Positions 16,215-57,979 of a DNA stretch of 64,000 nucleotides are shown one piece after another. The notes beneath the pieces were generated by a model. It ran no database searches. It was not told where the DNA came from and saw only the letters and a program-made list of their open reading frames with translations. The translations under genes and the position numbers were made by a program. Position 1 is the stretch's first letter. Every line of letters starts with the position of its first letter. Origin of the DNA: Bryoerythrophyllum caledonicum (Eukaryota; Streptophyta; Bryopsida; Pottiales; Pottiaceae); the NCBI GenBank assembly GCA_963971425.1, contig OZ020514.1:26586602-26650601 (forward strand). The letters run 5' to 3'.

Positions 16215-16343
16215 ATAGGTTATAAACCTATTACCTATATAAGGCTCATGAGAGTAGCAACAATAAATTTTTGTTTCTAAGTTGTTTGCAGGAGGTCTTG
16301 AGTGAGTTTGAGTGTTTGAGTGCATATGGACCGATTTTGAGCT

Positions 16344-16540
16344 CTGAAGGTATACAAAGACGGCTTTTGGAGCTTTGAAAGTGTAGAAGGAAGGCTTTGG
16401 AGCTTCGGCATTGTACAAGGAAGGCTTTGAAGCTTCGATGGTGCACACGAGAGGCTTTGGAGCTTTGGTGGTGCACAACGGCTCATTTGAAGCTTAGTAG
16501 ATGCAAAAGAGCTCATTTAGAGCATCGGAGGCGATTTGGG
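16344..16540 (+). repeat. 30 bp tandem repeats in copia leader
   Basis: About six degenerate 30 bp units with the core GGCTTTGGAGCTT followed by a TGGTGCAC-like word, between the left LTR and gag. All three reading frames of the opposite strand remain open through it, purely because 30 is a multiple of three. Confidence 0.75.
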
Positions 16541-17710: not shown

Positions 17711-18830
17711 ACTACGCATTTGCAACTCAAGATGGACCTCATTCCAAGTCCATATATATGTGGATTTTGGATTTGGGCGCCACAAAACACATGACACCAC
17801 ATCAGACGACATTTCATTCGTATGAAGTAATTCCATCACGCAATGTGCATTTGAGTGATGATAGTGATGTGGATGCCATCAAAGTCGGTGCCATTGTTGT
17901 CGAAGTGCTCGGGAGGGGGCGTTCGAAGAGGATGACATTCAACGATGTCCTCCATGTGCCCAAGTTGCAAGCAAACTTGCTCTCGGTGAGCAATCTTGTG
18001 GTAAGTATTTTGAAGGTGCAATTCAATGTGGATGGGTGCTCAATGAGGTCACCAAATGGAGATGTACTTGCAATAGCACCTCGTGAAGACATCTTGTACC
18101 AAGTGGCCTTCACCACGGTGTATAAGGCGGATGCGACCAATCTGGTACAATCATCAAGTAAAAATGGCGCCATGGAGCTTTGGCATTGTTGACTTGGTCA
18201 TTTGAATACGAAAAGTGTGCATTTTCTCCAAAGCATGGTAAGTGGCATGATCCTTGGCAAGGAAAAGTCAACTTTGCCATTTGTGAAGGGTGTATGCAAG
18301 GCAAACAACACATGACATCATTTCCAAAGGATGGCAGGACTCGTGCCACAAAGCCTTTAGAGATTGTACATTCGGATGTGTGCAGCCCTATAAGGACCAC
18401 GTCCATTGGCAGTGCAAGGTACTTTGTAACCTTCATTGATGACTTTTTAAGGAAGGAGTGGTTGTACACGTTGAAGACGAAGAGGGAGTGCCTTGAGAAG
18501 TTCAAGGAATTCAAGGCGCTTGAGGAGAAGCAATTGGAGTACGAGATCAAGGTGTTTTGGTCGGACAATGATGGACAGTTCAACTCAAAGGCATTTCGAG
18601 GCTTTCTGAAGCATCACGACATCAAGAGACAACCATCAACACCGTACACGCCCAAACAAAATGGAGTGGCTGAGCAAGCAAACTGCACCACTGTGGATAT
18701 GGCAAGGAGTATGATCCATGCTCAACGACTCAAGCTTACTTTTTGGGCGAGAGCGGTGACCAATGCGGTGTACATCGGCAATCGGTATCTAACAAGGACA
18801 CTTGTTACCATCACAACACAAGAGCGGCCG
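17711..18830 (+). pseudogene. copia protease and integrase
   Basis: Protease block WILDLGATKHMTP near 17760 has DLG in place of the DSG active site. It is followed by NDVLHVPKLQANLLSV. The GAG-pre-integrase block LWHC-stop-LGHLNTKSV near 18180 and the zinc-binding CEGCMQGKQ precede the integrase core. The catalytic Asps are in VHSDVCSP (about 18370) and WSDNDGQFNS (about 18560), and the Glu is in TPKQNGVAEQ (about 18660). Frames switch at about 18180 and 18740. Enzymatic roles are polyprotein cleavage and insertion of the cDNA. The copy is dead because of the protease change, the stop and the frameshifts. Confidence 0.85.
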
Positions 18831-19520
18831 CAAGCCATGCATTGCTCACATGCGTGTGTGAATGCATTGCATATGTGGTGGTGCGGGATGCAAAGAGGAG
18901 TAAACTCGATGTAAAAGGAACAAAGTGTTTGTTTCTTGGATATTGCAAGGGAACCCAGGCATATCACCTCATGTGTATTGAGACGAAGAAGATTAATAGG
19001 AGCCGTGATGTAATATTTGTTGAAAATAGCTCAAGTGTTGGTTATGGTTTGGAGATGAGCCCAAGTAGGAGTAGTGAGAGGCCTTCATTGGTTTTGGTGG
19101 ACAAATCTTCCAAATTAGGTACTACAGGTTATAGGGATCTTAAGAAAAAGAAGAAGGTGAAACCATGGATTTTTCATCAAAGAGGGCTTTACAAGAAGTG
19201 AAGCAGGTCACTCATTATACATCAAGCGAATCAGTGAGTACTTGTTGATGGTGCTCATCTATGTAAATGACTTGATCATCTTGGCTAGCCTTCTAGCCAA
19301 ATTGACGTGGCTCAAACGCAAGCTCAACTCAGAATTTGGCATGATCGATCTTGATAAGTTGAAGTATTTTCTTGATGAAGAATTTGTGAGGGACCGCAAG
19401 GCACGCACCATCACCACAAGCCAAAAGAAGTACACCGAGGAGGTGCTCAAGCACTTAAACTTGGAATATGCAAGTCCATCGATACACCACTTGATACAAA
19501 TGTCAAGTTATTGAAGATTT
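18830..19520 (+). pseudogene. copia reverse transcriptase (large internal deletion)
   Basis: The integrase C-terminal part (KCLFLGYCKGTQAYHL) near 18930 jumps, after about 250 bp of serine/lysine-rich sequence, to VLIYVNDLIILA at about 19250. The RT fingers and first palm blocks are missing. The conserved YVDD is YVND, so a catalytic Asp is lost. The thumb-side part KRKLNSEFGMIDLDKLKYFL follows. Confidence 0.8.
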
Positions 19521-43735: not shown

Positions 43736-45902
43736 CATTTGGCGTTTAAAACAAACACATTGAGTTTTAGTGGGTGATGGACCGGGTATTGACGGGTTTT
43801 ACATTTTCCCGATGCTACATTGATGATGTTATCATTTTTGATAGCGCCCTACATGAGCATGTGAGGCACCTTTAGGCGGTGTTCGAGAGATTATGACAGT
43901 AGGGATTGCGCTTACACCATGGCAAGTGCAAGTTCTTCTACAATCGGTTGCCATAATTAGGACATATGATTGTTCCAAGGGGTCTTGACGTGACGCATAC
44001 CAAGGTAAATGCGATGCAGAAGATTCTAGCCCCAACCGCCATGCCATGGCTTCAAGCTTTTCTTGGCTTGGCATATTACTATCACCAATTTGTTAAGAAC
44101 ATTGGCTTAATTGCCAAACCGTTGACTATTCTCACCGGGATGGATCACCCATAAACTTGTAGACAAGACTACTAGCAGTCGTTACTAGTTTGAAGCTACA
44201 GCTCTCTTTAGCACCTGTGTTGCAGCGTTTGGATGCTACACGATCCTCTTAGTTACACACGAACTAGAACACTATTGCATTGAGGGCAGTGATGACTTAG
44301 AAAGATGATGAGGGACAAGAGTACGTTGTGGCGTTTGCTTCTGGGTGCAACAAAAAGGCGGAGTCCAAGTGTTTTATCCTATGAGGAGAGGCTTTGGCCG
44401 CGATTTGAGCCATAGCTCATTTTAGGTCCTATTTGTATAGGCAATATCTTATGTTGGTGACCAACCATCAGCCTTTTTGAAGTAGCTCATGGAGTCTGAC
44501 AATTTTACTAGCAAGCTCGTCAGGTGGGCTTTCTTGCTTCAGGAGTATGACTTTGAGATTGTACATCGGGCGCCCATACTAACTTGGATGCAAATGGTCT
44601 ATCTTGCACTCGAAGTCCTTCAAAGATAGATCTCACTCGTGCTAGGTGGCATGAGGACTATGACAAGGAGTCAGTCTCTGGGTGGCATGCTTAACTTACA
44701 CACGTTTATGTCTCGCTCTACATTGACGTTGCGTGATTACAAACGGTTAAGGAACTAGATAGGGCCCAAGTTGTTAGCAATGTCTAGGAAGACAGTCTAG
44801 TCTTGCACAAGCTACAACATGGGATACTTCCCCAACTCTTTCTGCTATGGTGCATGATTGAGTTGGGCACTGAACAACAAGGTATTGTTGGGAGAACGGC
44901 CTACTATTTCGGATGTGGTCAAATGGGACTAGGCGCATGATTCTTAGGCCAAATCATAAGGCTTTGTAGATACGACAAGTACACAAAGACCTAGGACATT
45001 TTGGTGTGCAACAGACTTATTTGATGTTGCATAGCTAGTATTGGTGGACCAGCATGTATCCAAAAGTCGTCATTTATGTTTCTCGGTGTAAAGTGTGTGA
45101 TCGAATATGATCCAACTTCAATAATTTGTTACCACAGCTGCAACCTCTGCCCAGTATGAGATTGAGCTACCGTTGGTCCTTGGATTTTGTCAGGCCGCTT
45201 GTTGTCACCACAAGTAGAGCCAAATACATGTTGGTGATAGTGGAGCATTTCAGCAAGTGGATTGAGCTAGTGGCACTACCACAAATCTCTTTTAAGTTGG
45301 CGGCTAAGGCATTCCTTGATTGGGTGTTGGCTCATTTTGTAGCCCTAGCTAAGGTTTTGATAGACCAAGGGCATGAGTTTCTAGGGGCTCTCAAAGCTTT
45401 GTGTACCAAGGCTTTGAGAGACCAACGTACCACTTCTTGGGATCACCCAGAAGCGGACCGTTTGGCGGACCGTTTGGCGGACCGTTTGGCGGAGCGTGTG
45501 GTTCAGACCATGAAGCGGGACCTATGGAAGTATGGATTATTTCAGGGTGGTCACCGCAATTGAGATTTGATGATATTATAGATGGCCAGAGAGTACTCGT
45601 TTAGCCGGCAAGCTTTACTAGTTGCTTCTAGTCTGTTTCAATTGTTGTAGGACGATGAGCTAATTTTACCAAATTTCATTAAGGAAAAGTTGGCTCCGGT
45701 TGTGGATTTAGACGATTTAGAGGTGTGGATCCAGTGTCTATGGGATCACGCAAAGTTCTTCAAGCGGAATATGCTTATGGCCGTGGATAAGTTATCTATT
45801 GCTCAACACCGTGATACCTTACGGTGTGCTCGTATCTGTAGAGGTGCCTACCAACTTCTACTACAACCTTTTTCCACGGAAGATTACATTTGTCTATAGG
45901 GT
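43736..45902 (+). pseudogene. plus-strand Ty3-like element: RT C-terminal half, RNase H, integrase
   Basis: RT resumes with E-F-stop-WVMDRVLTGF, RCYIDDVIIF (intact YIDD at about 43810), RLHHGKCKFF, LGHMIVPRG and FLGLAYYYHQFVKN. RNase H-like residues EYVVAFASGCNKKAE and LVTNHQPF follow near 44320-44480. The integrase has the zinc-binding region (DLGHFGVQQTY, CKVCDR) near 44990-45100 and the core LSYRWSLDFVRP, VEHFSKWIEL and VLIDQGHEFLG at 45126-45400. The usual catalytic Glu region ADGxxERVVQTMKR is altered by a 12 bp repeat expansion. The tail MAVDKLSIAQHRDTLRC at about 45780 matches the C-terminal region of such elements in algae. Stops and shifts throughout. Confidence 0.8.
45453..45500 (+). 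repeat. in-frame 12 bp tandem repeat in integrase
   Basis: GCGGACCGTTTG three times exactly and once as GCGGAGCGTGTG. Translated ADRL-ADRL-ADRL-AERV beside the integrase catalytic Glu, where family members have a single ADGQAERV-like segment. Confidence 0.85.
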
Positions 45903-45985
45903 CAGGGTTGTCATACTGGACGGACGTCCGGTACGCCCGTCCGTCCGATTCGCCCGTCCGGTAGAGCTCTCGCCCGTCCGGGTAA
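45903..45985 (+). repeat. hAT left terminus and CGTCCG subterminal motifs
   Basis: Inverted terminus followed by GGACGGACGTCCGG and four CGTCCG words up to 45980. hAT transposases bind short repeated subterminal motifs, so these are candidate binding sites. Confidence 0.75.
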
Positions 45986-46112
45986 GTCAACTGAGGGTTG
46001 ATTTACCCACTAGGTAAAAAATAGGCGACGTGGCAGCCATGTTGGCACCACATAGCTGCCACGTAGGAGAGGGTCATGTTTGAGTAGGATCAGGGACTAA
46101 TGGCAAGAGGGA

Positions 46113-46233
46113 GGTGGGGCGGAGACGTCCCCGCCCCCACACGGGCAAGGGCGGGGACGTCTCCGTCCCTGCCCGTGTGGGGCGGGGACGTCTCTGCCTC
46201 TACTAGTGCAGGGGCGGGGACGTCTCCGCCCCT
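46113..46233. repeat. GACGTC cluster 1 (left end)
   Basis: Four GACGTC cores at 46124, 46156, 46187 and 46219, spaced 31-32 bp, each in a GGGCGGRGACGTCYCCGCC-like palindrome. It lies about 0.2 kb inside the left terminus. Confidence 0.9.
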
Positions 46234-46645
46234 TCATGAGTTAGTTAATAGTGTTTAACTATTGACACTATGTTGGTAAACTAAAATTTATGTTTACTGT
46301 AGTATACACTAAATGTGAACCCATACACCAATTGCAAATGAGGCACTTAGTGTAGTGACATAACTGGACACTAAATGCCACTTACTACACTATGTATCAA
46401 TTTTTGTAGAAATAATAAATTTATATCTTTCACTTGTGCACATTTAGTGTATCAATAGTGTATCAATTGTTATTTGTGCTTGAACAAATGCAAATCTCGG
46501 ATTTAGAATTTAAGATTTGGACGTATCCAATTTTGATTAAAATATAACGTATGGCAATTGCCAATTACACATATTCTTCTACGAAGATGCCGTATTGCCT
46601 ATTTAACCACCACATGCGAAACTAATGCAGCTAATTAACAAAAAA
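46234..46645. other. AT-rich spacer with TAGTGTA/TACACTA words
   Basis: No gene. Repeated TACACTAAATG and TTAGTGTA words in both orientations occur at 46300-46460. They resemble, but do not clearly match, the MITE at 3588. Confidence 0.4.
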
Positions 46646-48221
46646 CTATTGTCGGTAACAACATAGAGGCATAGTCCAGTTGTGGGGGGGTTTCATTAAT
46701 GTGTCTAAAACATCTGGTACAGAAGACCGTTCTTCGAGCAGTTGTTTTTGCAACGCTGTAAGTTTTAGCTTCAAGTTTACATTTTGCTCCGTGTTTTTGC
46801 TGGTGAAATACAAAGTGTCCCAATCTTCTTTCCAAATTTTTTTACAAATCCAACCCACCGCAAATGCATCTGCTGCCTTGGAGTAGAGGTGTGACCGTTG
46901 CAACAAGCGAGTTGGTGGAGTCCTGCGGCCCAAAATTATAGAACAGTTATGGTGCCACAAACCGTCGCCGCTCTCTCTCTTGTTGAAGCTCCTCCTTGAA
47001 TTGATAACCATACCTTGATGGCTCATTCTCCACTACCCGACTAGAAAGCCCCCAATCGCAAATTCCGATGTACACCGTATCGGGTTTCCACTCATCAAAG
47101 TGGAGCAAAACATTCGATGGAGAGATGTCATTGTGTATATAATTTGCGTCGTGGCATTTTCCCACAATGACAAGCAATGATAGCGTGAGGTTCACTCGAT
47201 TTTGGCGGTAAGTTTTTACCCACCGAAGCTCTTGGATTGACAACCCGCTATTCGAATGCATCTCAATCCGTTCAAATGGCAATGCTTCGTCCACTTTCGA
47301 GTCAAACTTGGACCAAAAAGAAGCTAGAGATCCCCCATTCCACTAGAGCGTGTACCCTTCCATAGTTTTCGGGTGGATGTACGCAAGTCTAATGATCCCT
47401 GGATGCACTACCGGACACCCTCCAGCCTCGTTGATGATGTTTCGGCGCTTCTCCCTCTCGTTGGTGTTGGTCAGAGTCTTTCCGGCGAAGTAAATCCAAC
47501 TTGGAACGTTTTCCAATTTGGTTATCATCACCTTCCGTACAGCCCCATAGCCACCCACCGCGCTCTGCCCTGGCATTGGAATCACTTTAGCGCAACTTTC
47601 AAGCCACTTGAAAGTTCCACCAACGTAGTGAGCCAAAATTTGTTCCTCAATAGTCGCTTTCCAGGGAGCTAGTTTCTTCTTACGGGTAGAAGAGTATTGT
47701 TGAACGAAGCCCTGGATCATCCTCATCTTCGCCACTAGTGGGCGCTCCTCCAGGTTCCAGGTGCTCTCATCCTCCTTCTTCCCTGTGACGTAACACCAGT
47801 TCGCAACGATATTGGTGGTCAGTGCGGTCACTTGTGTGTCCAACCACTCCGAATGCAACCAATAATCTGAGAAATGATTAAATTTCTCAGATTTATCAAG
47901 GTTTGACATTAATTCGTGTTGCATGTCAACCGTCAACTTGTGGTATAACTCTTCGTTGTGGGTCAAATAGCTCCTCGTCAACGCCCCTGTCGTCCGACGC
48001 TTGTAAAACTCGACGGCAATCCCTCTACATTCAACCATGTATTCGTGCGGGGGCATATCCAGATTTGGTGACTTCTTCCGCCTCTTCCCGCTCGATGATG
48101 ACGGATTCAATGATCCCGAAGTCAACTCCGTGTTGGTGGACGGAAGAACCGTCTCATCAACATCATCCAAGTCCATAAATACTGGGCACTTCTCCATCGA
48201 CCTACTTCCTACTCCCGCCAT
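46646..48221 (-). pseudogene. protein kinase-like cargo gene (broken)
   Basis: ATG at 48221. Residues 1-200 are a helical N-terminal region with a basic SGKRRKKS patch and no recognised domain. The kinase fold starts near residue 222: glycine loop GGYGAVRK, AGK lysine at 248, and Glu of helix C at 265 (NIINEAGG). After a TAG at 47345-47343 the same frame continues with WNGGSL, then the catalytic loop YIHNDISPSNVLL (HND for HRD), CDWGLS (DWG for DFG) and RRRFVAP. A TAA replaces the Glu of APE at 46949-46947, and after a frameshift the C-lobe continues with HLYSKAADAFAVG and IWKEDWD to about 46700. Two nonsense changes and one shift inactivate it. It is divergently transcribed from the 754-residue gene. 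Substrate unknown. Confidence 0.75.
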
Positions 48222-48694
48222 ATGTGATAGTCAACTCCCTACCGTGGTCAAAATTCCAAGTTGATGGTTTTAAAAAAAACCGCAAAGAGTCTGGGTACAA
48301 TAAATGGGCCAAGCCCGATCACCCACCAAACTCACTTTCAGGCCGCAAAGCGAACTGACACGTGAGGCCTAGGGAGTGGACTTGGCAGAGAATAAAGACA
48401 AAATGTCCCCTATTTATATGGTGTAGGGTTCCTTTTGCGAAGACGTCCCCGCCCTACCTGGGCAAGGCGGGGACGTCTTCTCCCCTGCTCGGTAAGGGGC
48501 GGAGACGTCCCCGCCCCTGCCCGGGGACCCTAGACCAGTGCTTCGTCTATCGGCTATATAATATCGGGCACACCCCTAATTGTCCCCGCCTCACATACTC
48601 CCTCTTCATCCACCTCTTAATTGAGTTGGTTGTGGGCGTCGTGTGAGGACTTCATCCATTCGCATCACATACATTATTCAGATTTTCCCCACTC
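48222..48694. promoter_or_regulatory. divergent intergenic region with TATA box and GACGTC cluster 2
   Basis: Lies between the kinase-like gene (minus) and the 754-residue gene (plus). Three GACGTC cores at 48442, 48472 and 48504 (30-32 bp spacing) in GC-rich palindromes. TATATAATA at 48555-48563 is 132 bp before the plus-strand ATG. GACGTC is a bZIP-type core in plants, so an enhancer role is plausible. A related leader (CGCCTCACATACTCC and GTGGGCGTCGTGTGAGG) precedes the second gene copy at 52240. Confidence 0.65.
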
Positions 48695-50959
48695 ATGGCC
48701 ACACCGGTAAAAGTGAATAAAGAAGAACGAGACAAGGGTCGACTACGATCGGGAAACAAGCAGCGGAAGAGGTTGCATGTGCTTCGGAATCTTGTTAAAT
48801 TGGCTTTTGAAGGTTGGGAAGAAGATCTGGAGCCATGGAGTTTCGAGTGGTGCCATATCGACAAGGCTTTCCCGCAGGAGCGACACAATTATCACCGACA
48901 CTTTCAGAAGGCAAATTTATGGAAGTGCACAGACGAGGCGTTCAAAAATCGGTGCATTGAAGTATACCAGGTCTTGTACGACATCCCTTATATCAAACGC
49001 AACGAAGTAAATCTCTTCCTTGCGCGAGGTGTCCATGCGGAGGTAAAGTTGGGCAAGAGGGTGGATTGGTCCACCTTGAAAGCCATGGGAGATAGCATAA
49101 GAGTTCCTTCTCCGGCGAATGGATTGATTCCAATGGGGACACGGAGGTATCCAGAAGGCGGATTGGGCAAATCGATGGCGAAGACTGAACTGGTCGACAC
49201 GTACGAGACCGATCCCTCAAACACGGATACAGACTCTGACGGATCCCACGTTCCAATCACAAGGAGCCAAAGGACACAAGCGCACACCAAACAAAGGAGG
49301 GCGGAACAAACGGTTAACGTAGTCGTTAACAATACCGTGAATGAAGTTGGGGCTCAGGTACAATCCCCCGCGGTTGTTGATCAAACATTAGAAGCCTCTA
49401 TTGGTGCTATTTTTGCCAACACTATCCAAACCTTGCTGAACCAATTGGAAGGGAAGACAACAGAACTATTGTCATTGCGCGATGAGGTTCGCAAGTTGAG
49501 AGTTGAAGTCAATGATAAAAACATTATTATTGACCAGCAACGACATGATATGGAGGAGCTCCGACTTGCCCTTCAAACTAGTACAATGACCACAGAAGAT
49601 CGGAATCCACGACGGGAGGAAGAAGTGATTGTACACGTGTCAATCCAAGACGATTCATTGTCGTTTGATGAGGCCCCTACCAACGCAGACAAAGCTATGG
49701 TCAACAAAGAAGAGGGTGCGGGGGGTGACGGCGACAAAGAGCTCGCTAAAGCGCTTGAAGAGAATTCAAGACTACAAAGTCGCTTGGATGTGTTGGTAGA
49801 ACATTACTATCAATGGAAGTTGGCATGCGTCTTCACGGTCGATCGGTCCCGACAATTGGTGGCGGAATTCCAAAAAATCAACAACAACTATACCGAAAAC
49901 AACCAGGAGAGGGTGTTTGGTTTGACATCGTGGGCCCTCGTAGATGATCTTTTCAAGATGGATGAAATGGCGATGGTGAAAACCGCTGGTGGGCAAACAA
50001 CCATCGATTGGTCCCGTTACAAATGGGATTTCAAAAACGAGGTTTCATCTACCCTCGATCATCGGGGCAAACCCATGTTATTGTGGCCACAACCTTCGAG
50101 CTTTGTATCCGACGGTACGACTTGCTCAATTTGTCTAAACCCATTTGGTCTAGAAGGTGGGATGCATCTAGGCACTTATGAGCACTTGTACCATCCATTT
50201 TGTTTGATTAGCTTGATGGTTGTACGCCGGCGGTGCTCATTGTGCAAGGCCCCTTTTCACGAGCGATTGTACAAACTTTTTGGATTAGTTCCATACATGC
50301 CCCCGCATTGGGAGTTCAATGTGACGAACGCTTATGATCAATCACATATGTGGGGAAAGGATTTGGTGTGGAGCTGGAAACTGAAGATGCACTCGTTGGA
50401 TAAGATGCACCTTTCAAACGAGTGGGGTTGGGAAAGGGACCCGGAGCAGATTGTCCGGGTGTGCAAGAATTTGATCCCGTTAAAGGACAAATACGGTCAA
50501 GGAAAACGAAATTTCTTCTACCAATGCTTTAATGGCCATTGGGACGAGAACGGGGAGCAATTTTGTTTCGGACCTCATCCACGGCAATGGTTGTGGGCCG
50601 TTGACGGAGTTCGCATCACAGACGACAACGGGGAACGCATTTCTCACGACGTTGACCAACCAGACCCGCAAGAACTAAGACAATTATCGGAATTAGAGTG
50701 GAAAGAAATTTTCCGAAATGACGGAATCGACTTCTTGCTCGATGTGCACAGTCCAGGGACACGGCAAGCGCTCGACCAGCTCATGCAATCCCAAATCCTA
50801 AGGGCCGTGTTGGATGAAGATGGACCAGCGAGGAGAACACGATCGGCGTCTCGTAGACTTGTATTGGGCTCAGATGAAGACCTCCCTATGCACGTAGGGG
50901 CACACGACAACGAGGCAGGGGCGAGTGGCACTACTAATAGCCCGATGAATATTGACTAG
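48695..50959 (+). CDS. 754-residue RING-like/coiled-coil protein, hAT cargo
   Basis: An intact frame. The ATG at 48695 follows a TATA box and leader and corresponds to the start in the second copy. Residues 1-160 form a conserved helical, basic/aromatic domain (FEGWEEDLEPW, HIDKAFP, DEAFKNRCIEVYQVLYD, RNEVNLFLARGVH, VDWSTLK) also found at 52354. 165-205 is acidic then basic. 240-300 is a predicted coiled coil (LEGKTTELLSLRDEV, VRKLRVEV). 477-517 is RING-like: C477-x2-C480, H497, H500, C503, C514-x2-C517. The third ligand, normally Cys, is Tyr495, with His491 nearby. 535-640 is Trp/His-rich, and the tail is Arg/Ser then acidic. A ubiquitin ligase or protein-interaction role is inference. It may be an accessory transposition factor or a captured gene. 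It is the only long undamaged cargo gene. Confidence 0.8.
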   Translation: MATPVKVNKEERDKGRLRSGNKQRKRLHVLRNLVKLAFEGWEEDLEPWSFEWCHIDKAFPQERHNYHRHFQKANLWKCTDEAFKNRCIEVYQVLYDIPYIKRNEVNLFLARGVHAEVKLGKRVDWSTLKAMGDSIRVPSPANGLIPMGTRRYPEGGLGKSMAKTELVDTYETDPSNTDTDSDGSHVPITRSQRTQAHTKQRRAEQTVNVVVNNTVNEVGAQVQSPAVVDQTLEASIGAIFANTIQTLLNQLEGKTTELLSLRDEVRKLRVEVNDKNIIIDQQRHDMEELRLALQTSTMTTEDRNPRREEEVIVHVSIQDDSLSFDEAPTNADKAMVNKEEGAGGDGDKELAKALEENSRLQSRLDVLVEHYYQWKLACVFTVDRSRQLVAEFQKINNNYTENNQERVFGLTSWALVDDLFKMDEMAMVKTAGGQTTIDWSRYKWDFKNEVSSTLDHRGKPMLLWPQPSSFVSDGTTCSICLNPFGLEGGMHLGTYEHLYHPFCLISLMVVRRRCSLCKAPFHERLYKLFGLVPYMPPHWEFNVTNAYDQSHMWGKDLVWSWKLKMHSLDKMHLSNEWGWERDPEQIVRVCKNLIPLKDKYGQGKRNFFYQCFNGHWDENGEQFCFGPHPRQWLWAVDGVRITDDNGERISHDVDQPDPQELRQLSELEWKEIFRNDGIDFLLDVHSPGTRQALDQLMQSQILRAVLDEDGPARRTRSASRRLVLGSDEDLPMHVGAHDNEAGASGTTNSPMNID

Positions 50960-51215
50960 GTATATTTTTTGTTTTTGCGGTGCCAAGAGACAATTTTCTT
51001 ACAATGCTTCATCTTTTAGCGTTTAATGTATTTTTTTCCACTTTCGTATTACATTATGGATACTAAAAAAATATATATGAATAGTACCCGTCTACATTCT
51101 ACTTGATAATAGTGGTGTTAATCCGTGTGATTATGGATGTACTTAAGCCTCATAAGAATTTGTGCGTTTGTATAAAAAAAATGGTGTGGACCAAGTTTTA
51201 AACCTCCAAACATTT
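50960..51215. other. 3' flank of the RING-like gene
   Basis: T-rich downstream sequence. The words GACTAGGTATATTT after the stop recur after the stop of the short copy (53008), which shows that both genes share a 3' end. Confidence 0.5.
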
Positions 51216-51860
51216 TTAATCCCTAGAGGACCAAGGCATTTTTGCACCAAAAACACTTCAAAACTACGAGGCTATAGTATAATGCCTAAGAATGGAGACA
51301 AAACCTTTTTATTTCTACATCTAACCGTAGGATCTCAATAAATACTTCTTTGTTAATGTCCCTACAAAATTTCATAAATTTTAACCATACGGATTGAAAG
51401 GCTTGCATAGCTCCCATGCTATTCACTACTTCGTATCAAATTTTTGCACTAGATAAGGCCTAAATCCATTACTAATGGTAGTTTAGGATGATGTTAGTTC
51501 CTTATACACCAATTGTTAGAGGTAGAAAAAGGGTGTAGCTTATTCAAGTCAACTATGCTAGTAGTGGAAGCTAAAAAATGGGCAAGTAACGTTTTAGTTT
51601 TTAGATACTTGATATGTTTTAGATTGATGTATATTTATGGTTAATATGAAGGTCTACACCACATATTGTTGTGGAAAAAATCAAAAGTATAAAAAGTTAA
51701 AATCTCTAAGTTTTATGTGGTAAGACGTTTTTGTTTTTGGTACCTTGCCCATTATATTTTTGGCAATATGTGAAAATCTTTGACTTGAGTTGAAGCGTTA
51801 TTTTCCACTAAAGACAAGGATTTTTTTTTTTATTTGGAAGGAAATTATTTTCTACACTCT
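51216..51860 (+). mobile_element. TTAA-family element C (truncated right end)
   Basis: Begins TTAA-TCCCTAGAGGACCAAGG, close to the ends of A and E, and follows their internal order (AACCGTAGGATCTC, GTTAGAGGTAGAAAAAGGGTGTAGC, AAATCTCTAAG, CTAAAGACAAGG). The right end is missing where tandemly duplicated hAT DNA begins. It shows that this family entered the cargo hAT or its source. Confidence 0.65.
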
Positions 51861-52353
51861 TATGTTTGCTCCAAAACTAATAGGGAGCTAATAAAGGTGT
51901 TCCTTATTCGAGAGCATGCCGACATAGTACAAAAGTTGTACTTTCCATTTCGCCTTCCTCCCTAGAACTAGAGAGAGACATAATCTGCATGTTATTTTAA
52001 GTGCATTAGGATCTTGTCGGAACCAAAAATAAATCACCCCATATTTAATTGTGCACCCGCCTCATGGAGATGAGGAGTACCTCGGCCAAGCAAGAGTGGC
52101 CTCAAACGCCTCCTTGGAAAGTTTTGTGGGGACGAACCCCCCCCCCCAATTTACAAGCAAACATCCCCGCCCAGCCCTGGTGGGGCGGAGACGTCTCCGC
52201 CCCCACCGGATTACTATTTTAATGGAGGGGGACCTCATTTGTCCCCACCTCGCATACTCCTATCCACCATCTCTTCATTGAGCTGGATGTGGGTGTTGTG
52301 CGAGGTCTCATTCATCCATCCACGCCAGAATTTTGCATTCAGACGTGCACACC
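51861..52353 (+). promoter_or_regulatory. upstream region of short gene copy, GACGTC cluster 3
   Basis: 51880-52130 is a unit (GGGAGCTAATAAAGGTGTTC to ATGGAGATGAGGAG) repeated at 53383-53580. The cluster holds one intact GACGTC at 52190 and one decayed unit (ACATCCCCGCC) about 30 bp before it. The leader at 52245-52320 matches that of the 754-residue gene. Confidence 0.55.
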
Positions 52354-53010
52354 ATGTCTTCATCCGGACAATTGGCTAAGGAGGAGCGTGACAAGACCCG
52401 TGCAAGAGCGGGGAACGTCCATCGGAAGCGGTTGCACGATCTTCGAAATCCCGAGAAGTTGGCTTTTCGAGGTTGGGAGGACGTAGTGGAGCCATGGAGT
52501 CTTGATGATTGCGCGAACTACATTGAGTGGTGCCACATCGACAAGGCTTTCCCAGAGGCGCGAGACAACTATCACCGGCGCTTCCACAAGGCAAACTTGA
52601 AACATTGCATCGACGAGGCGTTTAAAAACCGATGCATCGAAGTTTACCAGGTGTTGTATGACGTCCCATTCGTCAAACGCAACGAAGTAAATCTCTTCAT
52701 TGCGCGGGGTGTTCATCCAGAGGTGAAGTTGGGCAAGATAGTAGATTGGTCCACTTTGAAGCCGATGCCGGGGAAGGTAAAAATTCCTCGCCCTGAAAAT
52801 GGAATAATTCCAATGGGATGGCCCAAGTATCCGGAAGGTGGATTGGACAAGTTCATGACTGTGATGGACGACACACCTAGCTATGATACTAACACGTCAA
52901 GTTCAGATGATGACTCCGACGGAACCCACGTCCAAGTCGCGAGCGAAAAGGCACAAGCACGTGGTAGGCTGAGGAGGACCGAACGAGCCCTTCACCAACG
53001 TTACTATTGA
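52354..53010 (+). CDS. 218-residue internally deleted copy of the RING-like cargo gene
   Basis: An open frame matching residues 1-200 of the 754-residue protein (EERDKTRARAGN, HIDKAFPEARDNYHR, DEAFKNRCIEVYQVLYD, ARGVHPEVKLGK, VDWSTLKPM) with a short insertion (LDDCANYI) near residue 50. The ATG at 52354 aligns with the start of the long copy. An in-frame ATG at 52333 is less likely. After about residue 205 the coiled coil, RING-like domain and tail are absent and the frame ends directly at the shared 3' sequence ATTGACTAGG. This is therefore an internal deletion of about 1.6 kb that kept both ends. It could yield the N-terminal domain alone, perhaps as a competitor of the full protein, or be a neutral remnant. 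Confidence 0.65.
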   Translation: MSSSGQLAKEERDKTRARAGNVHRKRLHDLRNPEKLAFRGWEDVVEPWSLDDCANYIEWCHIDKAFPEARDNYHRRFHKANLKHCIDEAFKNRCIEVYQVLYDVPFVKRNEVNLFIARGVHPEVKLGKIVDWSTLKPMPGKVKIPRPENGIIPMGWPKYPEGGLDKFMTVMDDTPSYDTNTSSSDDDSDGTHVQVASEKAQARGRLRRTERALHQRYY

Positions 53011-53400
53011 CTAGGAGTATTTAAAGGTTTAGGACGTAGCAAATCAATTTTGTGAACAATACTTTTGCTCTAAACATTATATGGTTTTAAATATCCTTTT
53101 TGTTTGTAATGGTACAATTTATTTAGAGAACTTGCACATTACATTCTACTAGAGGCTTATAATACCCGTTATGGATGGGGACTTGCATAGCTCCCATGCT
53201 ATCCACTACTTGGTTTATTTTTTTGCTTTCATGGTATGTGGTACATTCCTACTCTTTCGTGGGGCAATTGTATTTAAATTATTTATTTAGAGAACTTGCA
53301 CATTACATTCTACTAGAGGCTTATACTACCTGTTGTGGATGGGGACTTGCATAGCTCCCATGCTATCCACTACTTGGTTTATTAGGGAGCTAATAAAGGT
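53011..53400 (+). repeat. direct repeat of about 106 bp, two copies 163 bp apart
   Basis: The block beginning GAACTTGCACATTACATTC at about 53119 and again at about 53282 continues through GCTTGCATAGCTCCCATG. The last word also occurs in element C at about 51405, so the repeat derives in part from a TTAA-family copy. Confidence 0.75.
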
Positions 53401-53892
53401 GTTCATTATTGGAGAGCATGCGGTCAAAGGACAAAAGTAGTACTTTCCCGAAAGCCTTCCTTCGTAGACATAACCTGCTTCTAATTTTAAGTGCGTCGCA
53501 ATCTTGTCGGAACCAAAAATAAGGTACCCTATATTAAAACCTCTTCCCTCATGGAGAGGAGGAGTGCCTAAGCACCTAAAATGCCCCAAAGGCCTCCTTC
53601 TCCTAGGTTGGGGAGACGTCTCAGCCCCTGCCCAAGTAAGGCCGGGGACGTCTCCGCCCTGCCCTGCCCACGATTGTCACCTTGGCCTCTTTCCCTTGGA
53701 CCTCAATTCAGTTTGAGCTCCTTGCGAGTCTACTTGGGTGGCAGGCGGCACTCGTGTGCGGGTGAGGTGATGTAAAAATTGGTTCAAGCAATGCACCAAC
53801 GCTATCAGACCTCACATTTTCACCTGATTCTATACTATAACTAGCCCCGGATTTTGGCTTAGATGGGACTTGCACATTATTTGGCATAAGCC
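53401..53892 (+). promoter_or_regulatory. upstream region of transposase, GACGTC cluster 4
   Basis: 53383-53580 repeats 51880-52130. Two GACGTC cores at 53615 and 53647 (32 bp apart), 240-280 bp before the transposase start at 53893. Confidence 0.55.
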
Positions 53893-56800
53893 GTGAATGC
53901 AATGGGAAGTCAAAGGAAGCAAACAAAAGAATGGGAACCTTGGTACAATTTTGGTGACAACGGGGGCAAAGTGAGTTGTGTTTTCTGTAACTATACTTTT
54001 AGCTACAAACGTGAGCGTGCGTTCGCTCACTTTGGATACGGCGCCAAGTCAGAGAGGTCGATTTGTCGCAGCCTACCTCCCTATGTGCGAAGTCGATTTG
54101 CCAATTGTGGAAACATTGTTCCGCAACGAATGTCGGGCGGGGACATGTATGGCGGAGATTCAGGCCCGAGTGGTCTATTGAGGGCACCAACTATTGACAC
54201 TTTAAGCCAATCCGATGCTTAAAATAATGTGGCGGGTGGGGTAACAAGTGGGCCTCTGGAAGGAGTGCCTAATCTCTCTGAAGGAAACGACTGCGAACAT
54301 GTGTCGGGTGGTCTTACCGCCTCGAATTCCACTAGATCTGGGCAACTACATCAACAACGGATGCTTGATGCTTTTAACATTGCAAAGGGGAAGGAACTTC
54401 ATGAGAAGTGGGCGACTTTTTTCTATCAAGCGAATGTGCCTTTTAATGTGGCGCGAAATCAAGCATTCATCGATGCAGTGAGGGCGACATCTGTGGCAAA
54501 GTTTGAGTACACTCTTCCTACATATCACCAATTGAGGACTAGATTGATTGAACCTAAGAGGTTGCATCGATGAATGCAATTGAGAAAGAGATTGAAGCCA
54601 AAGTTGGTTTTGCAATCAAGAATTATGGGGTGTCGATATGCACGGATGGTTGGGATGATGTCCATCGGAGGCCCCTCAGGAATTTAATGATGTCGTGTCC
54701 CACTGGTGACGTATTCTTGGGGAGCATAGACACCAGTGGTGAGAAGAAGTCCATGCGGTACATAGCGGACCAAGTAAAAGTTTACATTGAGAAGGTGGGT
54801 TCCAAGAATGTGACACAGATTTGTACAGACAATGCTTCCAACATGCTTGGAGCGATGGATGATATTATTCTCACATACCCGCACATTCACAAGCAGGGGT
54901 GCATGGCACATGCATTGGATCTCATGTTGGAAGATTGGGCGAAGGTCCAAGAATTTAAAGATTTAATAGAGAGGGCAAAGAAATTGTGCAAATATATTAG
55001 AAACCATCATTCGACAATGGGGACACTTCGTGAGTTGAGTCCAAACCTGCATATTGTAGTGCCCACTCAAACCCGCTTTGCTTGTAATTTCCTTATGTTG
55101 GATCGATTGGTGAGACTCAAAGGACTGTTGGAGCAGTTGAAAGACCACCTCCGTGTTGTAAACTACTTTGCAACCCAACGGAACAAACAAAATGGAGAGC
55201 AAGCAGCAACCGCAGCGCGTAATGTGGTGCAAACCATCGAAGATGTGGCCTTTTGGCAACGATGTCAGAATTACGTGCACATGACTGGGGATGTTTTGAA
55301 GGCATTGCGTGTGTTTGATGGCCGCGAACCAGCCATGGATCGTGCTTGGCTCGTGATGCATAATTTGCGAGAACACGTGTACTCTTTGAGAGAGTCACCC
55401 TTTACTCTACGAGCTGACATAGCATCCACTCTTGAGCAATCTTTTGATGCCCGGTGGCAAATGGTTTTTAGCGATGTTCACTACGCCGGGGCTCTTTTGA
55501 ATCCGTACCTCAAGGATAATGTGGCGTTTAGGGCTGACGAAATCGCACAAAGAGCATTGAATCGGGTTGTTCGCAAAATGATGGAGGTATTGGAAGTCTC
55601 ATATGAGGACGTCCAATATGAGTTAACACAATACGAGGAGGGCACAGGACCATATGGCCCTACCGAGGCATCTAACATCCGCCCGACAAAGCTTCAACTT
55701 CACCAATGGTGGGCTAGGATCGCAGACAAGGCATTGTCTAAAATAGCTGTTCGTATTCTAGCCCTTACGTGTTCAGCTAGCTCTTTCGAACGAAATTGGA
55801 GTATGTACTCGTTTGTCCACAACAAGAGCCGAAATCGATTAGCGGCAGAAAAGGCTGAGTCATTGGTGTATATTTATACCAATAGCCGATGCCTTCAACA
55901 AAGACCGGGGGCCGATCCCGTTCGATGGTATGATGCGAATATTCACTCGGAGGATTCCGACCCAGATGCCCTAGGGCCGGTCCCGGTGGGTGAACCTAAT
56001 CGTGAATTTGATGTGTTGATAGCCGAGGAAGAGGAGGAGCACAATATGGCAGCTCTCCGCACTCCGCTGGAGTACCGTGGACACCCTAATCTTTGGGCAG
56101 AAGGCGCCGATCATCTAAAGGAAACAAGAAACTATTACGGAGATGATGACGATGTGCAAGAAGAATTGACTCAAGGTCGCTGGGGACCTTGGAATCACAG
56201 TCCTCGTCGCAGTCCTTCGCCTCATTTTCATCAAAATGAGGGCATTCATGAAGTGCAACCTTTGTTTACTTCCTCAGAGAGCGACATCCCAAATGTGACT
56301 AACCTTGAAGAGCCTGAAACGGGGGGGGGCAATGTCGGGAATGTTCGCGACGAGGACAATTCCCCAGCAGACTATGGAGGTGGAAATGGAGATGGCGACA
56401 ACAACGGAGCGGGAGAGAACGCAGTAAATACTGCGACTCGAAACAACCAAGCATCGGTTGAGAACCGGTATGGCCAAGAGAGCCCTATTGGAATGGGTGC
56501 ATCATTTCATAGCACTGGAGTCGTTCAAGGAGACTCTAACGCAAATGTTGTAAACACAACAATTGTAGGGACGATTCGAAGAAGTGAAAGGGTTGTTAAT
56601 CAGCGAAAGCGTTTTGACCCGGAATATGTAGACCCCGATGATGCTTTTGCATTCACAGAGGACCTTGAGCCACAACCATCTCCGGTTGTGGTGTTGCCTA
56701 CGGTTATCAATGACCAGAATGTACCAACGCCGCCTTCCCGGAATTCCTCTTCTTCTAGAACGGGGAATGCCATGTATGGACCTTTTCAACGAAGTGTAGG

Positions 56801-57383
56801 CGTTGAGGGGATGGGTCTAAACACTTCCGCTACTACTACCAGAAATGGCAGACCCCCTTTGGCCGCTACAAGGACGCCTCTTCATCCAATGGGTCAATAT
56901 ATACAACCGAGTGCAAGGACTAATGCTCGTGGAGGGTCTAGAGGCCGTGGAGCGGCTAGAGGCCGTGAAGGAAGAAACAACGGCAAAGCATCCTCCTCAA
57001 GGCATCGTAGACGTCCCCTCCTTGGAATAGGGGCACGAGATCCAAACGTGGTTGTACAACCGTTTTTGGACACGTATGTTCCAGGACGCTCTTCAACAAC
57101 TCCGACGTTTGTTGTTCCGAATCGAGAAATTCATCCTACCAGCGGCCCAACCATAAATTCTGACGGCGATGATCCTCACGCACATCGACAAAAGAGATTC
57201 AGACGCTCACGTTGCGATGGTGAAACAGTCGTAGAGCTTCGCAATGACAATTCTGAAATAGAGGGCTTTTGGACTACGGATAATAGCAATGGAGAATTCT
57301 TAGATGAGAGCGGTGAAGGAGCTAGTGATGACAACCGTCCAGATTGCGATGAGGCACCAGATGATGATGATATCGTCCTTTGA
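53893..57383 (+). pseudogene. hAT transposase (BED finger, hATC) with long C-terminal extension
   Basis: 53893-54222 encodes a BED-like finger (CVFCNYTFSYKRERAFAHF then C) followed by RSLPPYVRSRFANCG. A TAA at 54220-54222 interrupts it and the same frame continues to 54573, then a one-base shift leads into a 937-residue frame from 54570. In that frame the catalytic residues fit hAT: Asp26 in ICTDGWDD, Asp87 in ICTDNASN, CMAHALDLML at 111-120, and Glu407 in SSFERNWS within the hATC dimerisation region (about 370-440). Residues 450-937 are an unusual acidic and Asn/Ser-rich extension with an Arg-Gly tract (GGSRGRGAARGR) near 800. Cut-and-paste of its own ends is the expected role. Introns instead of lesions cannot be excluded, since the 937-residue part is intact. 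Confidence 0.85.
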
Positions 57384-57887
57384 GATGCGGTTATAGGTGG
57401 CCCGTCCACCGAAGGAGTGCGCAGATCGGGCCGTTTGAATAATTAAATGACAAGAAAAGTAACTACATATATGTATGCGAAATCAAGAGAGTTGTGATAA
57501 TTCATAGAAGAAGCTAGGAGAGAAAAAGGTTTCTTAGATAACTACAAGATATTACTTGGTTTGGAAGTATGAGATTAGCGAATTGTTGTTTTATCATGAA
57601 ACTTTTTAATGTAATAAACAGATTTTGCTTCCAGACATTAAGGCCTATCCGCTCAATGATGCAGGGACGTGGACGCCTACATAAGGGGCGGGGACGTCCC
57701 CGCCCTAGGGGGTAGACGTCCCCGCCCTAACGGAGGCGTCTCCGCCCTTCATGGTGACATCCCCGCCCCTCATGGAGACGTCCCCACCCTAGTGCCACGG
57801 TGGCGTGACACGTCCGTATGTGACGTGGCGATCATAGTAAAAATTTCTTACTTGCAAAAAATTATTGGGCGCACTTTGGGCAATCCG
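57384..57887. other. 3' flank of transposase and GACGTC cluster 5
   Basis: No gene. At 57690-57785 GACGTC cores or one-base variants occur every 20-22 bp (57693, 57715, 57736 variant, 57756 variant, 57777) in CCCCGCC context. The period is shorter than in clusters 1-4. Confidence 0.75.
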
Positions 57888-57971
57888 TCCGAACCGTCCG
57901 TCTGTGCCGTCCGGACTGCCCGTCCGGTTGTCCCGTTCGATCACCTCAACCCGTCTGTTATGACAACCCTG
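57888..57971 (-). repeat. hAT right terminus and CGTCCG subterminal motifs
   Basis: CCGTCCG words at about 57887, 57895, 57908 and 57920, then ...CCGTCTGTTATGACAACCCTG. It mirrors the left end. Confidence 0.75.
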
Positions 57972-57979
57972 TATAGGGT

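Follow-up and report, generated by a model that had tools for sequence, protein, structure and literature searches.

In a 64,000-nt stretch of contig OZ020514.1 of the moss Bryoerythrophyllum caledonicum (assembly GCA_963971425.1), which was analysed as a whole and is called the window in the following, we characterized a hAT transposon of 12,069 bp at positions 45903-57971. We interpret it, with a probability of roughly 0.7, as a defective member of an autonomous moss hAT family that has many copies, moves by cut-and-paste, carries four genes and possesses its own regulatory module. As judged from the compared copies, the part of this interpretation concerning the family and the selection on its genes is very probable, and an anti-silencing role of the module, consisting of a kinase, a RING-H2 protein and a RING-less relative of the latter (RINGb), is proposed tentatively by analogy, at somewhat less than even odds. 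The four genes of the window copy are arranged as follows:

46646-48221, minus strand: kinase-like gene, about 526 amino acids in open copies, broken in the window copy
48695-50959, plus strand: RING-H2 protein gene, with a conserved N-terminal domain, predicted long helices, the RING-H2 domain and a conserved C-terminal part
52354-53010, plus strand: RINGb gene, a relative of the N-terminal domain of the RING protein only, about 60% identical, without a RING
53902-57383, plus strand: hAT transposase gene, with a Cys-x2-Cys N-terminus (BED-like, by eye), DUF659 and hATC

Family size and gene content

The searched genome (437.4 Mb in 894 contigs) contained 798 exact copies of the 13-bp element end CAGGGTTGTCATA (381 forward and 417 reverse), while the reversed control sequence occurred once on each strand. 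The 29-bp right end was recovered 531 times (264 + 267) with up to 3 mismatches, compared to 0 for the control. Among 100 listed end places on one contig (C1), we selected the 10 facing end pairs besides that of the window which were 11-14 kb apart, and their content was not inspected beforehand. Seven other facing pairs within 30 kb on the same contig were left out (3.7, 6.3, 9.9, 10.5, 17.3, 18.9 and 25.8 kb); these shorter or longer pairs may have arisen by deletion or contain nested insertions. All seven query pieces, representing the kinase (three pieces), RING, RINGb, the transposase N-terminus and the transposase body, were present in 10/10 of the spacing-chosen copies, and their order and relative orientation were constant: kinase (-), RING-H2 (+), RINGb (+) and DUF659/hATC transposase (+). 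The target duplications of these copies matched at 8/8 positions in six cases, at 7/8 in three and at 6/8 in one, and they differed from each other and from that of the window, indicating different target sites. The first-pass annotation, which had been made from the sequence of the window, had set the same gene set in copies with different flanks as the support to look for, and such copies were thus obtained many times over.

A second sample consisted of 10 copies picked from RING matches with open frames, for which the outermost pair was taken if several end candidates were present. Both ends were found in 6/10 of these copies, with duplications of 8/8 in two, 7/8 in three and 6/6 readable bases in one, and the ends of the other four were missing, degenerate or outside the stretch. 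In the resulting 21 copies, 10 of them chosen by RING, the kinase and RING genes were present 21 times each, RINGb 20 times and the transposase 19 times, once with only 36% of its length. We also scored the best 58 of 3461 first-look candidates for RING and the best 82 of 2336 for the kinase, all with at least 92% identity. At least 31 of the 58 listed RING places showed the kinase gene head-to-head with RING at a distance of 354-545 bp, and in one more the two genes were about 8 kb apart.

The distance matrices of the four genes correlated at 0.87-0.98 across the 17 copies containing all of them, and at 0.73-0.92 after the age of each copy had been removed; at most one of 2000 permutations reached the observed values. 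This correlated divergence indicates that the four genes share one divergence history and move as a single unit. The additional genes had previously been described as cargo of the element, a description that did not hold up in view of the presence of kinase and RING in 21/21 copies and of their selection signal (see below). Cargo is the wrong word for genes which, as far as the copies reveal, look like working parts of the transposon and not like stowaways.

Selection and decay

To evaluate selection, amino-acid-changing (N) and silent (S) variants were compared among 21 copies of the kinase, 21 of RING, 20 of RINGb and 17 of the transposase, using an expectation derived from the private mutations in the intergenic parts of the element. 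Private variants yielded N/S values relative to neutral of 0.84 for the kinase (p 0.12), 0.72 for RING (p 8e-4), 0.68 for RINGb (p 0.02) and 0.77 for the transposase (p 0.004); they mostly represent decay after insertion and are closer to neutral than the shared variants. For variants present in at least two copies, the values decreased to 0.52, 0.58, 0.44 and 0.55, respectively (all p 0.003 or less), and for those in at least four copies to 0.35 for the kinase (23 N, 24 S, p 4e-4), 0.41 for RING (21 N, 18 S, p 0.006) and 0.09 for RINGb (2 N, 8 S, p 6e-4). Stops were absent among the variants of this last class in kinase, RING and RINGb, and one was recorded in the transposase. The Nei-Gojobori ratios of means over all pairs were 0.45 for the kinase, 0.46 for RING, 0.37 for RINGb and 0.57 for the transposase. 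These comparisons indicate that all three accessory genes carry a signal of selection.

Judged by its reading frames, the window copy itself is defective. Its kinase gene is interrupted by a stop at codon 293, another at codon 425 and a frameshift close to the latter, its RING gene is a single open frame with the third zinc ligand lost (C to Y), and its transposase gene contains an in-frame stop at 54220-54222 and a frameshift near 54560, both in the first part; RINGb is open. Movement of this copy would probably depend on a transposase supplied by another source. Its private changes amount to 0.8-1.4%, which ranks it by lowest share among 17 copies as 4th for the kinase, 10th for RING, 13th for RINGb and 10th for the transposase, and its private divergence is therefore ordinary for the sample. 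The former description of the element as recently moved appears weak in the light of this middle ranking and of the damage to its kinase, RING and transposase genes.

Element ends, target site and transposase

The features at the borders of the window copy are:

45895-45902: left copy of the target site duplication TATAGGGT, identical to 57972-57979
45903-45915, plus strand: left terminal inverted repeat CAGGGTTGTCATA, 13 bp, the sequence of the genome-wide exact count
45920-45985: left subterminal CGTCCG/GGACGG repeats, putative transposase binding sites by analogy with Ac
57880-57950: right subterminal CCGTCC repeats
57959-57971, minus strand: right terminal inverted repeat, the perfect 13-bp reverse complement of CAGGGTTGTCATA
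57972-57979: right copy of the target site duplication TATAGGGT

The earlier description of a large hAT element with precise ends and a target duplication was confirmed in its details: the 13-bp termini are identical (with the 798 genomic copies against 2 for the control mentioned above), the flanking TATAGGGT duplication matches at 8/8 positions, and mirrored CGTCCG/CGGACG arrays lie just inside both ends. The pentamers GACGG/CCGTC occur five times in the outer 120 bp on the left and six times on the right, compared to 0.18 per 120 bp in the interior, and they are dense at both ends in 16/17 copies, the right end of one copy being devoid of them. By analogy with Ac, the subterminal GGACGG repeats are probable transposase binding sites.

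The flank of the element is a retroelement, of which an integrase piece (rve-like) adjoins on the left at 45111-45563 (PF00665, E 2.4e-6, 28.2 bits at a cut-off of 32.6). About four in-frame repeats of a 12-bp unit are located at 45453-45501 within this integrase-like frame. A 103-nt query consisting of the two flanks joined with a single TATAGGGT gave 22 matches, namely the two half-sites of the window and 20 related places with 72-82% identity. All 20 of the latter, which are copies of the host retroelement, aligned through the junction without an insert, as expected of empty sites, which confirms the rejoining of the host retroelement upon removal of the insert.

The transposase matched the Pfam families PF04937 (7.8e-33) and PF05699 (1.8e-6), both above the cut-off. 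In 16 aligned transposases, D-N of TDNA, C/A/H of CxAH and E-R-N of ERNWS were invariant, and the aspartate of TDGW was missing from the list of columns with complete or near-complete invariance. The Cys-x2-Cys pattern at the N-terminus was recognized by eye only, at a position where Pfam gave no zf-BED match. With the 8-bp duplication, short inverted ends beginning with CAGGG or similar, and a transposase of the DUF659 type with hATC, the element shows the target duplication, ends and catalytic and dimerisation regions expected of a hAT transposon.

Accessory proteins

Both the RING-like and the kinase-like gene of the first-pass annotation are present in the element, but the RING of the window copy has lost a zinc ligand, its kinase gene is broken, and RINGb is a fourth gene that had not been named. 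All eight C3H2C3 ligands of the RING are conserved in 16/21 copies, the window copy not being among them. Of 12 RING proteins, 10 matched zf-RING_2 in Pfam at E 0.01 or better, and a profile search matched the RING of RNF24 (8.9e-7). From the C3H2C3 ligands and the RING fold, the protein qualifies as a RING-H2 protein. Non-coding direct repeats surround RINGb at 53104-53383 (92% identical) and at 51878-52048/53380-53538 (81-83% identical), which suggests duplications of non-coding DNA within the element.

For the kinase, both the fold and the catalytic residues were found, and a kinase domain with its key residues can be recognized in many copies. The nearest solved kinases in a single-sequence search were the Vaccinia-related kinases VRK1/2 (E 0.002), with a match of only about 60-75 residues. 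The fold comparison ranked other kinases first, with VRK absent among the rows shown, and we therefore assigned no subfamily. The kinase of the element differs from VRK1/2 by a separate helical region at its N-terminus and by the motif variants HND/DWG. Relatives of both the kinase and the RING protein were found in other sequence sets, with up to 65-69% identity and the domains kept. One kinase relative (P0083) is labelled as part of a 'Bacilli bacterium' metagenome-assembled genome, on a 2-kb contig; it may represent plant contamination of the metagenome bin because none of the prokaryote genome contigs (at least 3 kb) yielded a relative.

Palindrome arrays

We defined a 22-bp palindrome, GGGGCGGRGACGTCYCCGCCCC, from the repeats of the element itself. 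At 17/22 or better, it occurs 12 times in the window copy and 0 times in the remaining 51.9 kb of the window (mean of a shuffled motif control, 0.025 matches), an enrichment that follows from the construction of the motif, so that only its placement and spacing are findings. None of the 12 sites is located inside a gene, although the genes make up 66% of the element. The sites are grouped as follows:

46116-46232: left-end array of 4 palindromes GGGGCGGRGACGTCYCCGCCCC with about 32-bp spacing
48434-48517: array of 3 palindromes in the divergent kinase/RING promoter region
52182-52203: palindrome 5' of the RINGb gene
53607-53660: 2 palindromes 5' of the transposase gene
57685-57728: right-end palindromes, 2 at 17/22 or better and 3 at 16/22 or better

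Scanning 17 copies at 16/22 or better revealed five clusters in each, except for one copy without the left cluster: one at each end, one in the promoter region from which kinase and RING diverge, and one each 5' of RINGb and of the transposase gene. No clusters were observed outside the ends and the gene 5' regions in these 17 copies; in the copies other than that of the window, cluster positions were determined by eye against the gene starts. The clusters contained 1 to 15 sites, and neighbouring sites were 30-32 bp apart in 181/232 spacings (15 commonest classes), corresponding to about three turns of DNA. An array occupied by a protein would be expected to have such an arrangement. The GGACGG repeats within 120 bp of each end form a system distinct from these palindromes.

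Possible roles of the accessory genes

In the mechanism that we propose, the transposase would bind the subterminal GGACGG repeats and move the element. An element-encoded protein, most likely by way of the domain common to the RING protein and RINGb, would bind the palindrome arrays at the ends and promoters as one regulon, and the RING protein, in the role of an E3 ubiquitin ligase, would act together with the kinase on chromatin or silencing factors of the host, or on the transposase, thereby enabling expression and movement of the family. RINGb contains the shared domain but no RING and may be a partner or a competing brake. The most explicit version is a hAT control circuit in which a DNA-binding domain of RING and RINGb recognizes one palindrome, aligned along a single side of the helix at both ends and at every gene, and brings ubiquitin-ligase and kinase activity to these sites to counter silencing or to license transposition; as a complete scheme, we regard it as doubtful.

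A credible alternative, to which we would likewise give less than even odds, is that kinase and RING tune the activity or turnover of the transposase by phosphorylation and ubiquitylation, with RINGb as a repressor. This would entail an anatomy identical to that described here, and palindrome arrays at promoters and ends would suit autoregulation. Nothing in the sequence separates such a control of transposase dosage, or tuning of transposition in general, from an anti-silencing function.

Several points weigh against our interpretation of a selected regulatory module. The DNA-binding role of the shared N-terminal domain is suggested by a single feature, its duplication; GGGGCGGRGACGTCYCCGCCCC could also be bound by a host factor, and its enrichment is built in, as stated above. 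The structure prediction of the RING protein was poor (predicted local distance difference test, pLDDT, 52), and all ten scored residues of the kinase are kept in only 12/21 copies. In the selection test, the private variants of RING, RINGb and the transposase lie below the neutral expectation, which indicates an imperfect baseline, the kinase variants present in at least two copies include eight stops, which is the neutral proportion per amino-acid change, and under the strictest cut-off the transposase does not reach significance (variants in at least four copies, 0.54; 16 N, 10 S, p 0.17). The test counts variants without being tree-based, several cut-offs were tried, and half of the copies (10/20) were picked because their RING frame was open, a source of bias in the test of RING. 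Finally, in-frame stops are present in the RING gene of 10/10 spacing-chosen copies, in the kinase of 9/10, in RINGb of 7/10 and in the transposase of 8 of the 9 measured.

The broken frames in most of these copies would also agree with captured passengers, i.e. host kinase and RING genes engulfed by an ancestral hAT element and hitch-hiking to high copy without serving it, and DNA transposons of plants are well known to capture genes, as reviewed in PMC13317346. We consider this improbable, since amino-acid changes are under-represented among the shared variants of each of the three accessory genes, both proteins have the relatives with conserved domains described above, and the same palindrome arrays occur at the promoters of the accessory genes and at both ends. 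An unlinked host copy of the kinase or RING gene was not found among the best-scoring 58 RING and 82 kinase places listed.

Even less probable is a nested composite, in which the kinase/RING block would have been an element of its own that jumped into an ancestral hAT and has since moved along with it. The RING/RINGb duplication and the inner palindrome arrays could be what is left of former element ends, and ToxhAT is described as such a composite (PMC6737239). Against this, the layout is constant in the copies examined and the same palindromes are present at both outer ends; besides, an ancient fusion would still be one unit today. A benefit to the host, with kinase and RING as domesticated cargo useful to the moss as proposed for fungal Starship elements, is hardly credible: frames without internal stops do occur in 16 of the 58 listed RING and 27 of the 82 listed kinase places, but in the copies examined the genes are scattered, mostly decayed and tied to transposon ends, whereas a gene of benefit to the host should occupy few loci, and no unlinked host gene is among the matches listed.

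Comparison to known elements

Elements of the hAT superfamily are mostly known as one-gene transposons. Maize Ac is described as an element of 4.6 kb with one transcript, for the transposase, which binds AAACGG sites (PMC3260210). The moss family shares with Ac/Ds-type elements the 8-bp duplication, short inverted ends beginning with C/TAGGG, a hAT transposase, and arrays of hexamers ending in ACGG in the outer 200 bp, with GGACGG resembling the AAACGG of Ac. Unlike Ac, it is about 12 kb long, contains four genes and has a second motif system, the 22-bp palindrome, at its ends and promoters.

The closest functional parallel is VANC, the second protein of the VANDAL elements of Arabidopsis, which is reported to bind tandemly repeated motifs of the element and to remove silencing (PMC5735166). 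Both systems are plant DNA transposons that carry a further gene next to that of the transposase, and the non-coding DNA of both contains tandem arrays of a motif. VANDAL elements are Mutator-like, whereas the moss element is a hAT whose extra genes encode a kinase and a RING-H2 protein. Pfam scans of the element proteins detected no VANC-like or Ulp1 match, and the RING family gave RING types plus single weak others. The moss element is not a VANDAL, and by analogy its module may at most work like VANC.

Starship elements move by a tyrosine recombinase and carry variable host cargo, unlike the moss element with its hAT transposase and fixed gene set. The similarity to these giant transposons consists in a large element with genes beside the mobility gene (PMC11623301). 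The Pfam scan of eight window frames revealed no recombinase such as the captain gene of Starships encodes, and the mobility gene encodes the DUF659/hATC transposase. ToxhAT is another large hAT-associated element with several genes, described as a fungal hAT-like composite of 14 kb with 74-bp ends, no target duplications found, and fragments as most of its annotated instances (PMC6737239). In contrast to that description, the moss family has hundreds of ends, and the copies read show clean duplications and always the same set of genes. Large multi-gene hAT-related elements are therefore already known; a hAT element with a kinase/RING gene set was not described in the titles and abstract openings of the literature searched.

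A family with several hundred ends in one genome, three extra genes which carry a signal of selection (two of them of signalling type) and one motif linking its promoters and ends represents a testable case of the ways in which transposons control their host or evade it. If correct, the proposed control circuit would be a second, independent invention of sequence-specific anti-silencing by a transposon, using ubiquitin and phosphate signalling. Some kinase and RING genes in the gene sets of mosses may in fact be transposon genes, and because laboratory mosses are easy to transform and edit, the module is directly testable.

Other features of the window and genome

A copia-type integrase-like frame of 250 amino acids, judged by eye, is located at 18162-18914 on the plus strand, and the window seems rich in retroelements. 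A 30-bp unit is repeated 4.4 times at 16335-16467, with a unit length that would preserve a reading frame. A profile search of the genome with PF01698 (LEAFY) gave one strong match and six weaker ones above the cut-off on five contigs, which may be further copies, pseudogenes or chance matches. Among PDB entries, the DNA-binding part of this LEAFY protein was closest to that of the moss Physcomitrium patens (4bhk; 240.7 bits, compared to 172.4 for the second-ranked entry), in agreement with a moss as the host.

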